Shown piece after piece: positions 1 to 59,427 of a stretch of DNA of 64,000 nt. The first letter of the stretch is position 1. Each line of letters opens with the position of its first letter. This DNA comes from Methanoculleus sp. 7T. GTDB lineage: Archaea > Halobacteriota > Methanomicrobia > Methanomicrobiales > Methanoculleaceae. The DNA lies in contig NZ_JALPRP010000002.1 of assembly GCF_023195915.1 (NCBI RefSeq), forward strand, positions 62,001 through 126,000. Reading direction: 5' to 3'. Under the pieces are notes generated by a model. That model was not told where the DNA came from. It saw only the letters and a program-made list of their open reading frames with translations, and searched no databases. The position numbers were made by a program, and so were the translations under genes.

Positions 1-567
1 GTCGTGGTACCGCTCGATATGCTTGAAATCCCCGCAGTTCGGGAGAACCGGCCTGACCGGTGCTACGTCTGCAAGCGGACGATGATGGAGGCGATTGTCG
101 CGGAGGCAGAGCGGCGGGGAGGCCGGACGGTGGTCGACGGGACCCACGCCGATGACAGCCCCCGGACGCGGCCCGGGATGCGGGCGCTCCGTGAACTCGG
201 TATCAGGAGCCCGTTTGCGGAGTGCGGTATGGGGAAGGAGGATATCGAGGCCCTTGCGGGCGATCTTGGAGTGGTCGTCCGCCCGCCGTCGGCATGCCTC
301 GCCACCCGCATCCCCACCGGAGAGCCGGTTACCAAGGAGTGCCTTGCGCTCGTCGCGGCCGCTGAAGCCCTCCTCGCGCGGGAGATTCCCGGGACGATAC
401 GAGTACGGTGCATCGGGGGGCACGCCCTGGCGTACATCGAGGCCGATCCGGCGTACCGCCGGAGACTTGAGCGGCTGCTCGGTGCGGTGAAGGACCTTGG
501 GTTTCGTGACGTAACGATCGCTCCGGAGGGCTACCGGCAGGGAGGTGCGGATTCGTGGAAGCGGTGA
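1..567 (+). CDS. larE: LarE-like ATP-dependent sacrificial sulfur transferase, 5' truncated by the window edge
   Basis: Only the C-terminal part (about 189 codons) is present; the N-terminal PP-loop lies before base 1. Visible family motifs are DRCYVCK near the left edge, DGTHADD, and the ACLATRIP segment whose cysteine (codon at 295-297) matches the cysteine that donates sulfur in lactobacillar LarE. LarE enzymes adenylate and thiolate a pyridinium dicarboxylate cofactor precursor; archaeal members may supply sulfur for other cofactors. The gene overlaps the start of thiI by 13 bases, so the two are probably co-transcribed. Family assignment is firm; the physiological substrate in a methanogen is not known. 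Confidence 0.8.
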   Translation, partial: VVVPLDMLEIPAVRENRPDRCYVCKRTMMEAIVAEAERRGGRTVVDGTHADDSPRTRPGMRALRELGIRSPFAECGMGKEDIEALAGDLGVVVRPPSACLATRIPTGEPVTKECLALVAAAEALLAREIPGTIRVRCIGGHALAYIEADPAYRRRLERLLGAVKDLGFRDVTIAPEGYRQGGADSWKR

Positions 568-54676: not shown

Positions 54677-55327
54677 CTACTTTACTTCCACCCGCTCGCC
54701 GGTGACCATGTAGCAGACCTGCTCGGAGATGTCGCAGGCGTAATCGCCGCACCGCTCTAGGTAGCGTGCGATCATCACGTAATCGATGCATCGGGTGATG
54801 TTCTTCGGGTCTTCCATCATGTAGGTGACGCTCTCTCTAAAGATGGCGTACCTGAGATCGTCCACGACATCGTCCCGGCGCGACATGCCTTCGATGGGCG
54901 TGATCTCCTCGGTCTGATAGGCTTTCAGGGAATCGTCGATCATGGCGCAGACCAACTCGGCCATGTGCGGCAGATTCATCAGGTTCCCGATGTGAGGCTT
55001 CTCCGAGAGCCCTTCCACGAGTTTGGCGATATCTTTTCCGTACCGGCCGATACGGAAGAGCGCGAAGTTCATTCGGAGCGCGCAGATGATTGAGCGGAGG
55101 TCGCGCGCCATGGGCTGATAGAGCGCGATGAGGCGGAGCGCTGCTTCTTCGATGGCGAGGTTCCGCTCTGCGAGTTCGACTCGCTCTTGATACACGCGCT
55201 CCGCGAGTTCGGGATCCCGGTCCTCAAGAGCGGTCATCGAGCGAGAGAGCATGCCGTAGGCGAACGCTCCCTGTGCAAGGACCAAGTCCTTGAGTTCCTT
55301 CAGTTCTTCACGAAATTTGTCCACCAT
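54677..55327 (-). CDS. phoU: Phosphate transport regulator PhoU
   Basis: This 216-aa two-repeat helical bundle has the acidic metal motifs (RIGRYGKDIAK and YLERCGDYACD). It modulates the Pst transporter. It is the last gene of the leftward pstCA-pstB-phoU operon, eight bases after pstB. Confidence 0.93.
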   Translation of the reverse strand: MVDKFREELKELKDLVLAQGAFAYGMLSRSMTALEDRDPELAERVYQERVELAERNLAIEEAALRLIALYQPMARDLRSIICALRMNFALFRIGRYGKDIAKLVEGLSEKPHIGNLMNLPHMAELVCAMIDDSLKAYQTEEITPIEGMSRRDDVVDDLRYAIFRESVTYMMEDPKNITRCIDYVMIARYLERCGDYACDISEQVCYMVTGERVEVK

Positions 55328-55334
55328 GGGTATC

Positions 55335-56099
55335 CTATCCGAAACGCCCGGTCACGTAATTGTTGGTCAACTCTTCCTGCGGGTTCTCAAAGATCCGGGC
55401 GGTCGGCCCGAACTCGATCAGCCGCCCTAGGTACATGAACCCCGTGAAGTCGCTGACCCGGGCCGCCTGCTGCATATTGTGGGTCACGATGACGACGGTG
55501 TAGTGCTCTTTGAGGCCGTAGATGAGGTTTTCGATCTTTGAGGTGGCGATGGGGTCGAGCGCGGAGCAAGGCTCATCCATGAGGATGACCTCGGGCTCGA
55601 CGGCAAGCGTCCTTGCGATGCAGAGCCGTTGTTGCTGCCCGCCCGAAAGTCCCATCGCGGAGTCGTGGAGCCGGTCGGCCACCTCATCCCAGAGAGCCGC
55701 CTTTATCAGGCTCTCCTGGACGATTACGTCCAGCGTCTTTCTGCTATGGACGCCGTGGACGCGAGGGCCGTAGGCGATGTTGTCGTAGATGGACGAGGGG
55801 AAGGGGTTCGGCTTCTGGAAGACCATCCCGATCCGTTTCCGTAATTCCACGACGTCGCAGTCGGGAGCACGGATATCCCTGCCCTCGAAGAGGATCTTGC
55901 CCTCGGTTCTGACTCCCTCGACGAGGTCGTTGAGCCGGTTGAAGCAGCGCAGGAGGGTCGATTTCCCACACCCGGACGGCCCGATCAGTGAGGTGACCCG
56001 GTTCCGCGGGATGTGGACTGATATGTCGGAAAGGGCCTGCTTCTCGCCGTAATAGAGGTTTACGTGCTCAGTTGCAAGGATGCTGTCGTCTCTCTGCAT
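55335..56099 (-). CDS. pstB: Phosphate ABC transporter ATPase PstB
   Basis: This 254-aa ABC ATPase has Walker [11 protein letters not shown]-loop VFQKPNPFP, signature GLSGGQQQR, Walker [14 protein letters not shown] and THNMQQA. The FQKPNPFP segment and CFNRLNDL are typical of PstB. It lies seven bases after the fused permease gene. Confidence 0.96.
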
Positions 56100-58181: not shown

Positions 58182-58329
58182 GATACCAAACCAGGATCCA
58201 TGTTTATCTCAGTGCGGCCGTGGCCTGAGTGCCGCACCGTTGTCCAGCCATCACCACCCGTGCCCTTCGGCCCCCGATCTCTGCTTTGGGTGTGGGCGTA
58301 CAGGTAGATAGGCGTTCCCGAAGGAGACT

Positions 58330-58396
58330 ATATACGTATATGTCTCTCCAATAAATCACGGGGAGGTATATACATATCCCGAATGTATATATCCTC
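58330..58396. promoter_or_regulatory. AT-rich palindromes between pst operon and AbrB-PhoU gene
   Basis: ATATACGTATAT (58330-58341) is a perfect 12-bp palindrome. GAGGTATATACAT (58364-58376) and ATGTATATATCCTC (58383-58396) form a near-perfect inverted repeat with one extra base. Both lie over likely TATA boxes of the divergent units, the latter ending 24 bases before the ATG at 58420. They are good operator candidates for the adjacent regulator. Confidence 0.65.
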
Positions 58397-58419
58397 ACGA
58401 CGCCAACGCCTATCAATCC

Positions 58420-59427
58420 ATGGAGATCAGAAAGGTTCAGATCACCGGGGGCTCGTCGTATATCGTATCCCTGCCGAAACAGTGGATCAAGTCTACGAAG
58501 ATCCAGAAGAACGACCCTGTAGGGCTGATTGCGCAGCCTGACGGCTCGCTCTTGATCACCCCGAAGATCGACGGAGAGTCGGTCCACCGGGACAGGGTCT
58601 TCGAAGTCGGCGCCGCGACGGACCGCACGTTCCTGCTCCGTCTCCTTGTCGGGGCGTACGTCTCCGGTTTTACGACCATCCGGCTCGAATCGAAAGGGCG
58701 GCTGCCCCCGTTCGTCCGGCAGTTGGTCAGGGAGTTCACGCAGATGGCGATCGGGCAGGAAGTGGTCGGCGAGACGGACTCCTCGATAACGCTCAAGGAC
58801 CTCCTCAACCCTGCCGAGATGCCGTTTGAGAATACCATAAAACGGATGCATGTGCTGGCGCGGGGCATGCAACAGGATGCAATGACCGCACTCCGAGAGC
58901 ATGATGCGGCTCTCGCCGAGGATGTCGTCATGCGTGACACGGAAGTTGACCGGCTGCACTGGCTCGTCGCCCGGCAGTATAACCTTATCCATACCGACGT
59001 CACGCTCTCGCGCCGGATGGGTATCCCGGTAAATCAGGCGGCGTACTATTTCCAGGTCAGCAGAATCGTCGAGCGGATAGGTGACCATGCCACCAGGGTG
59101 GCGCAGAATGCTCTCGCCTTGATCGACCGCGAGGCCGACTCGACGACGCTCAACCTCATGGATGAGGCGAGCACGCTCGCCCTGGATATCTTCTCGCGGA
59201 GCATGGAAGCGTTCCATACGGGAGACATCAGAAAGGCGAACGCGACGCTTCAGGCGGTGCGAGACCTCGAGGATACAACCCGAGAGGTCAACGCTCAGGT
59301 GCTCCGGTTCGAGGCGGTGGCGGCGATCCCCCTCGGTCAGATCGCAGATAGCGTCCGGCGGATCGGGGAGTACTCAGGCGACATCTGCGAATGCGTCATC
59401 AATTACATCGTCGGACAAGAGGCCTGA
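58420..59427 (+). CDS. SpoVT-AbrB/PhoU phosphate uptake regulator
   Basis: This 335-aa protein has an N-terminal AbrB-type DNA-binding domain (MEIRKVQITGGSSYIVSLPK, KNDPVGLIAQPDGSLLI, residues 1-50) followed by two PhoU repeats (QVSRIVERIGDHATRVAQ, SVRRIGEYSGDICE). This archaeal class is thought to control phosphate uptake genes. It is divergent from pstCA-pstB-phoU across palindromic DNA, which fits that role. A hairpin plus T6 terminator follows. Confidence 0.92.
   Translation: MEIRKVQITGGSSYIVSLPKQWIKSTKIQKNDPVGLIAQPDGSLLITPKIDGESVHRDRVFEVGAATDRTFLLRLLVGAYVSGFTTIRLESKGRLPPFVRQLVREFTQMAIGQEVVGETDSSITLKDLLNPAEMPFENTIKRMHVLARGMQQDAMTALREHDAALAEDVVMRDTEVDRLHWLVARQYNLIHTDVTLSRRMGIPVNQAAYYFQVSRIVERIGDHATRVAQNALALIDREADSTTLNLMDEASTLALDIFSRSMEAFHTGDIRKANATLQAVRDLEDTTREVNAQVLRFEAVAAIPLGQIADSVRRIGEYSGDICECVINYIVGQEA

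Follow-up and report, generated by a model that had tools for sequence, protein, structure and literature searches.

In the bacterial PhoR/PhoB-PhoU-Pst system, the Pst transporter and PhoU sense phosphate and control pst, and PhoU acts negatively on Pst expression. To our knowledge, archaeal control of phosphate uptake without a PhoR/PhoB pair has been little studied in methanogens. Pst increases under phosphate limitation in Methanosarcina mazei and Methanococcus maripaludis, according to excerpts of PMC6864096 and PMC2723118, respectively. In Halobacterium salinarum, two phosphate ABC transporter promoters contain pho-boxes (Furtwangler et al. 2010, as cited in PMC6560208), which the excerpt of the citing paper describes as binding motifs of PhoU regulators that are essential for upregulation. 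TK2245 of Thermococcus kodakarensis is a SpoVT/AbrB-family regulator with a PhoU domain; the available part of PMC7325993 lists it in a table, within a section that deals with chromosome-associated proteins, and gives no target or site for it. The open-access collection searched yielded no paper on the operator of an AbrB-PhoU protein.

The divergent locus and its AbrB-PhoU protein

The window, by which we mean the whole 64,000-nucleotide stretch of DNA analysed, contains a promoter region between pst genes on the minus strand and a gene for an AbrB/PhoU fusion protein on the plus strand (Table 1). The minus-strand pst genes of this locus do not include pstS, and phoU matched PF01895 as its sole Pfam family. 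Long single PstC-PstA open frames are also present in relatives.

Table 1 Genes, protein domains and promoter elements of the locus (nucleotide positions within the window unless residues are given).
Feature	Position	Strand	Basis or remark
phoU, classical two-repeat PhoU without DNA-binding domain	54677-55327	-	TIGR02135 above cut-off
pstB	55335-56099	-	TIGR00972 above cut-off
pstCA, fused PstC-PstA permease, 691 aa	56106-58181	-	TIGR02138 and TIGR00974 above cut-offs
Promoter region	58300-58420		between pstCA-pstB-phoU (-) and the AbrB/PhoU fusion gene (+)
Weak TATA-like element of pst, GCCTATCTACC, inferred	58303-58313	-	position relative to BRE
pst BRE, TCGGGAA, inferred	58315-58321	-	aligns with TCGAAAA then TATA in other families
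Composite TATA-N4-TATA-N7-TCG(A/G)GAA, predicted operator plus pst BRE	58315-58340	-	sole match in its own genome
Site A core, TATA-N4-TATA	58329-58340		predicted operator, inside GACTATATACGTATATGTC (58326-58344)
Block B, GTATATAC	58366-58373		directly upstream of abrB-phoU BRE
Inverted repeat with 9-bp arms	TATATACAT 58367-58375 / ATGTATATA 58383-58391		arms 7 nt apart
Block C, GAATGTATATATCC, BRE/TATA of abrB-phoU, inferred	58381-58394	+	position and conservation
abrB-phoU regulator gene, 335 aa	58420-59427	+	PF04014 and PF01895 above Pfam cut-offs
Regulator, AbrB/MazE domain	residues 8-49		
Regulator, Alba-like domain, predicted	residues ~54-130		
Regulator, PhoU domain	residues ~130-334		

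The closest named orthologs of the regulator are 78-84% identical to it and come mostly from Methanoculleus, which assigns the window to a Methanoculleus-like archaeon. PF04014 matched its N-terminal residues 8-49 with 36.8 bits (cut-off, 24.7) and also matched all 20 members aligned (E ≤ 10; lowest E-value, 2.3e-13), and PF01895 matched two stretches of the regulator with 85.5 bits. These matches and the AlphaFold model bear out the claim of an earlier, sequence-only reading of this DNA that an AbrB domain is joined to PhoU repeats. The full-length PhoU equivalog TIGR02135 scored 70.2 bits, below its cut-off of 130.25; the regulator has a PhoU domain without being a classical PhoU.

In the AlphaFold model of the whole protein (mean pLDDT 83.9), a beta-rich N-terminal AbrB part, modelled with lower confidence, is followed by an alpha/beta domain and then by the helical PhoU part, of which residues 130-333 matched PhoU 1t72 with Z 27.1 and rmsd 2.2 over 200 aligned residues. 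Structure matches of the whole model span residues 56-334, and no AbrB structure was among them. The unannotated middle domain (58579-58809), lying between the AbrB and PhoU parts, is predicted to adopt an Alba/IF3-C type fold. When modelled alone (pLDDT 90.6), it matched Alba 2z7c best (Z 9.9, rmsd 2.2, 73 aligned), followed by IF3-C (Z 8.5) and SepF (Z 8.2); its sequence gave no match in the PDB, Foldseek gave none at E ≤ 0.001, and Alba is not among the Pfam families listed for the 20 regulator members. The predicted likeness to Alba is one of fold and says nothing on function, and it raises the structural question of how such regulators grip DNA.

Conserved elements of the promoter region

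The sequence-only reading had pointed to two AT-rich palindromes between the divergent units. The first, the 12-bp perfect palindrome ATATACGTATAT, is present at 58330-58341. The window contains 27 perfect 12-bp palindromes, three of them AT-rich, against about 16 expected in uniform random sequence (64000/4^6); being one of 27, the palindrome was rejected as evidence by itself and can draw meaning only from conservation. The second, given there as a 13-bp inverted repeat, was also found as an AT-rich inverted repeat, with arms of 9 bp; no repeat with 13-bp arms was listed in that region. As a conserved operator this repeat (58367-58391) was rejected, since orthologs keep just its two TATATA blocks and not the repeat. 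A perfect 10-bp inverted repeat, GATAGGCGTT/AACGCCTATC (58307-58316 and 58405-58414), brackets the whole promoter region, and its left arm overlaps the pst TATA-like element.

AbrB-PhoU was present in 33/40 family genomes. Among the 53 loci, 21 upstream regions were identical to another, leaving 32 rows, and L053 was dropped; in the resulting 31-row alignment, pst accompanies abrB-phoU in 15 rows and is absent from the locus in the other 16. Three AT blocks are kept in it: A (TTCcCGAA...ACTATAnnnnTATAt), B (gTATATAC) and C (GAATGtATATATCC). At site A, TATA-N4-TATA occurs in 13/15 rows with pst and 12/16 rows without, and the relaxed form ATA-N4-TAT in 13/15 and 13/16, being missing from two rows with pst and three without. 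The conserved dyad is centred at 58334.5, one base off the centre of the palindrome (58335.5). Site A stops seven bases short of the pst BRE and touches neither this BRE nor the pst TATA as mapped.

The columns of block B (58367-58374) have pairwise identities of 0.81-0.88 in the alignment and lie at a nearly constant distance from the ATG, and the block may be a second contact of the regulator. Judging from its place and conservation, block C very probably holds the BRE and TATA of abrB-phoU: its pairwise identities are 0.82-0.85, and in most rows its TATA precedes the ATG by about 34 bp. Site A lies about 50 bp upstream of this TATA box. Thus, the proposal that the palindromes cover the TATA boxes of both units very probably stands for the right block and falls for the left one, since alignment with other families places the pst BRE and TATA-like sequence a short way downstream of the left palindrome. 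Site A was accordingly rejected as the TATA of pst, which in another family, f6, has a separate BRE and TATA downstream of site A. Because site A is upstream of both the pst BRE and the abrB-phoU TATA, one site can serve both units.

The pst genes were gained or lost at this locus in five changes on the 31-gene tree, at least four of which are forced by well-supported branches. Pairwise identity of the pst TATA region (58302-58316) is 0.70 among Methanoculleus rows with pst vs 0.39 among rows without; the stretch scored as the pst BRE in the alignment identities lies two bases off 58315-58321. In the rows without pst, the two TATA halves of site A keep 0.73 and 0.97, the right half-site being the best kept. 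In 14 of the 16 rows without local pst, the genome carries a pst2 elsewhere, and 13 of these 14 keep ATA-N4-TAT, vs 0/2 for G015 and G030 (85% and 95% complete), in which no pst was detected (Fisher p=0.025, with tiny numbers and related genomes). The persistence of site A at abrB-phoU genes without local pst in the genus is what autoregulation would predict and supports it.

Distribution of the site and of the regulator

In the first 40 loci from other genera (one just 120 bp), abrB-phoU was divergent from pst in 30. When the pst-ward strand was aligned on TCGAAAA-like elements, several loci of f6 (like f1, a family label; f6 is a different family from that of the window's genus) showed site A, then a BRE, then a TATA. 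The pattern TATA-N4-TATA-N7-TCG was fixed and then tested on 40 newly fetched f6 loci, having been devised with loci from these families, and in part from these genera, already in view. It occurred exactly in 12/40 loci (0.00 expected from dinucleotide shuffles) and with at most one mismatch in 24/40 (0.28 expected), namely in 22/30 loci with divergent pst and 2/10 without detected pst. By this split, the site in f6 follows pst and not the regulator gene, and since f6 loci without detected pst mostly lack the site, the support for self-regulation via site A is confined to the genus. The sequence-only reading had suggested a search upstream of pst in other genomes with AbrB-PhoU proteins, and the left site is conserved there in both the f6 test and the genome searches described below.

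Across 66 anchored rows, the left TATA was found at spacing 4 in 45, 6 in 35 and 8 in 31, the overlap between these counts coming from TA tracts in f6. Only f1 shows the N4 spacing clearly, with L027 there also having a left TATA at 6 and 8. A motif matrix was built from 23 selected rows, with six poorer or shifted rows left out of the motif alignment (L012, L013, L018, L022, L023 and L024) and L026 and L052 removed from the motif references. The motif reached at least 9 bits in 9/15 f6 loci vs 5/24 non-f6 loci (three of these being f1 second copies; 0.5 expected), and the f1 matrix gave p<0.05 in 15/39 other loci, mostly f6. The element is thus conserved in pst promoters of regulator-bearing genomes of f1 and f6 and weak elsewhere; the genomes are related and several loci, including f6 loci, are near-copies, so that the counts are not independent.

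Whole genomes were searched with the composite of site and BRE. In the 35 genus genomes, TATAN4TATAN7TCGRGAA matched 13 times and its reversed control not at all; every match lies 5' of abrB-phoU, four of them at loci without pst (G004, G007, G008 and G010). In 16 f6 genomes, TATAN4TATAN7TCGAAA matched 17 times, against once for the reversed control; every one of the 17 adjoins pst genes and 16 also adjoin abrB-phoU. The f6 genomes were picked partly for exact sites, which makes the 15/16 uninformative on frequency and leaves specificity unaffected. The seventeenth f6 match (G120, L275) precedes a pstS-pstCA operon that does not adjoin abrB-phoU, and the only AbrB-PhoU match of that genome at E ≤ 1e-40 is located elsewhere. 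An element found with pst and without the regulator gene, or in the genus the reverse, is most simply read as the target of one protein that would act on both in trans. In the window's own genome, CTATATNNGTATATNT matched 32 times with two mismatches allowed vs 26 times for the reversed control, this locus being the only match with fewer than two mismatches, and CWATANNNNTATWG occurs at three places, none near the pst operon or an orphan pstS by coordinates.

The regulator and pst also co-occur. AbrB-PhoU was matched at E ≤ 1e-40 in 147/159 genomes of the order, covering 31/33 genera. Among the 35 genus genomes, 27 have pst and AbrB-PhoU, two the regulator only, none pst only, and six neither (five of these six are 80-87% complete; p=1.7e-5 without kinship correction). 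Of the order genomes, 12 gave no AbrB-PhoU match, and ten of these gave none to Pst either. The remaining two are G050, whose sequence stops 37 bp past its pst match, as would fit a contig end, and a genome whose sole Pst is a distant one.

Other phosphate loci were also inspected. Upstream of pstS of the pst2 that is unlinked to AbrB-PhoU, CWATA-N4-TATWG, which resembles site A, was found in at least 8/10 genomes; among the matches listed, this pattern alone was rarer than its reversed control in 33/35 genomes and also matched other genes. A second AbrB-PhoU, 46-48% identical, is divergent from the pst2 pstS in six genus genomes (G007, G010, G012, G020, G031 and G033; L094-L099), and no other AbrB-PhoU was found in G012 and G031. 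The orphan pstS of the window's genome lies far from the pst operon (L137:1664-2542; G000:C1:1861163-1862038); it and several orthologs carry a different conserved element like TATGGRTTTACTATAT upstream of a BRE, unlike site A. The sequence CTATACCACTATAG recurs at L139:1998-2011 and L140:2001-2014, and at 2001-2014 of L141, L142 and L152. It lies directly upstream of a DUF6573/HTH_17 gene (assigned by Pfam on two loci; the gene is missing from the L141 ORF list) that is not obviously phosphate-related.

A candidate phosphate switch

Based on these comparisons, site A is quite likely an operator of the adjacent AbrB-PhoU protein that adjoins the pst BRE, and it would probably serve pst and, in the genus, the regulator's own gene. 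We infer AbrB-PhoU as the binder, phosphate as the signal and the sign of control. In this model, the AbrB domains of a dimer would hold site A, the PhoU domain would read the state of the Pst transporter or intracellular phosphate, and the state so read would alter the recruitment of TBP and TFB to pst and, in the genus, also to abrB-phoU, perhaps with block B. The one-protein phosphate switch of the sequence-only reading thus keeps its outline, with a conserved site, and loses its details of the left TATA and the second repeat; for its third detail, repression of both units, activation of pst is at least as likely an alternative.

As to the sign, activation of pst under phosphate limitation is slightly favoured over repression. 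The lean arises because site A abuts the BRE without covering the BRE or the TATA, because the pst TATA here is weak, and because the H. salinarum pho-boxes are reported, in the excerpt of PMC6560208, to be necessary for upregulation. Against it, the same site accompanies good TATA boxes in many pst promoters of f6, and a bound protein could also block TFB.

A version of the model close to the sequence-only reading, which had both units repressed at low or high phosphate status, is that AbrB-PhoU at site A would purely repress both units under ample phosphate; this is possible, if doubtful. It would agree with the negative action of bacterial PhoU on Pst expression and with the place of the site between the promoters, next to the pst BRE, where a bound protein could block TFB. 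However, the site leaves the mapped BRE and TATA of both units uncovered and lies about 50 bp away from the abrB-phoU TATA, and, in the part of PMC6560208 available, upregulation is said to require the H. salinarum pho-boxes.

It is improbable that the AT-rich blocks are just core promoter elements, the TATA boxes of the divergent units, with no regulator site. Block C does resemble the abrB-phoU TATA, site A is TATA-like on both strands and could be read as a distal second TATA of abrB-phoU with a CGAA-like BRE adjoining it on the plus strand, and the TATA assigned to pst is weak in Methanoculleus. However, the pst genes of f6 have their own BRE and TATA at fixed spacing downstream of site A, site A in the genus outlives the decayed pst core promoter, and the identity of 0.97 at the right half-site in rows without pst is not predicted by a distal plus-strand TATA alone. 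A genuine operator for a regulator other than AbrB-PhoU is quite improbable: site and protein are linked by association, G120 has the site at a pst operon without abrB-phoU beside it, and most f6 abrB-phoU loci without pst are also without the site, but site, pst and AbrB-PhoU co-occur, the site in the genus stays beside abrB-phoU where pst is absent, and G120 does have one AbrB-PhoU elsewhere.

If AbrB-PhoU is the binder of site A, as we favour, a bolder form of the model, speculative and on balance unlikely, is that the regulator, built of AbrB, Alba-like and PhoU parts, would contact DNA through two of its domains, sit on site A and block B together, wrap the divergent promoter and couple the working state of Pst directly to how TFB/TBP are recruited to a pst promoter with a weak TATA. 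If true, this would be a complete archaeal phosphate switch in one polypeptide, with no two-component system. With a candidate operator, the regulator that probably binds it and promoters from across the order in hand, the idea of a one-protein switch is directly testable.

Compared with the bacterial PhoR/PhoB system, PhoU is fused to AbrB here, and the model needs no separate sensor kinase and response regulator. The domain combination stated for TK2245 in the available part of PMC7325993 is identical to that of the window's regulator. As far as the excerpted source describes them, the H. salinarum pho-boxes are, like site A, elements of pst promoters, a likeness of description and not of sequence or spacing. 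PhoU2 of Haloferax volcanii (HVO_2374), which lies beside pst1, is a prediction from a haloarchaeon; the portion of the source available names neither its DNA-binding domain nor an operator, and the likeness is again one of description and not of sequence. With these haloarchaeal precedents, the kind of system is already known, and the site and regulator described here appear as a further member.
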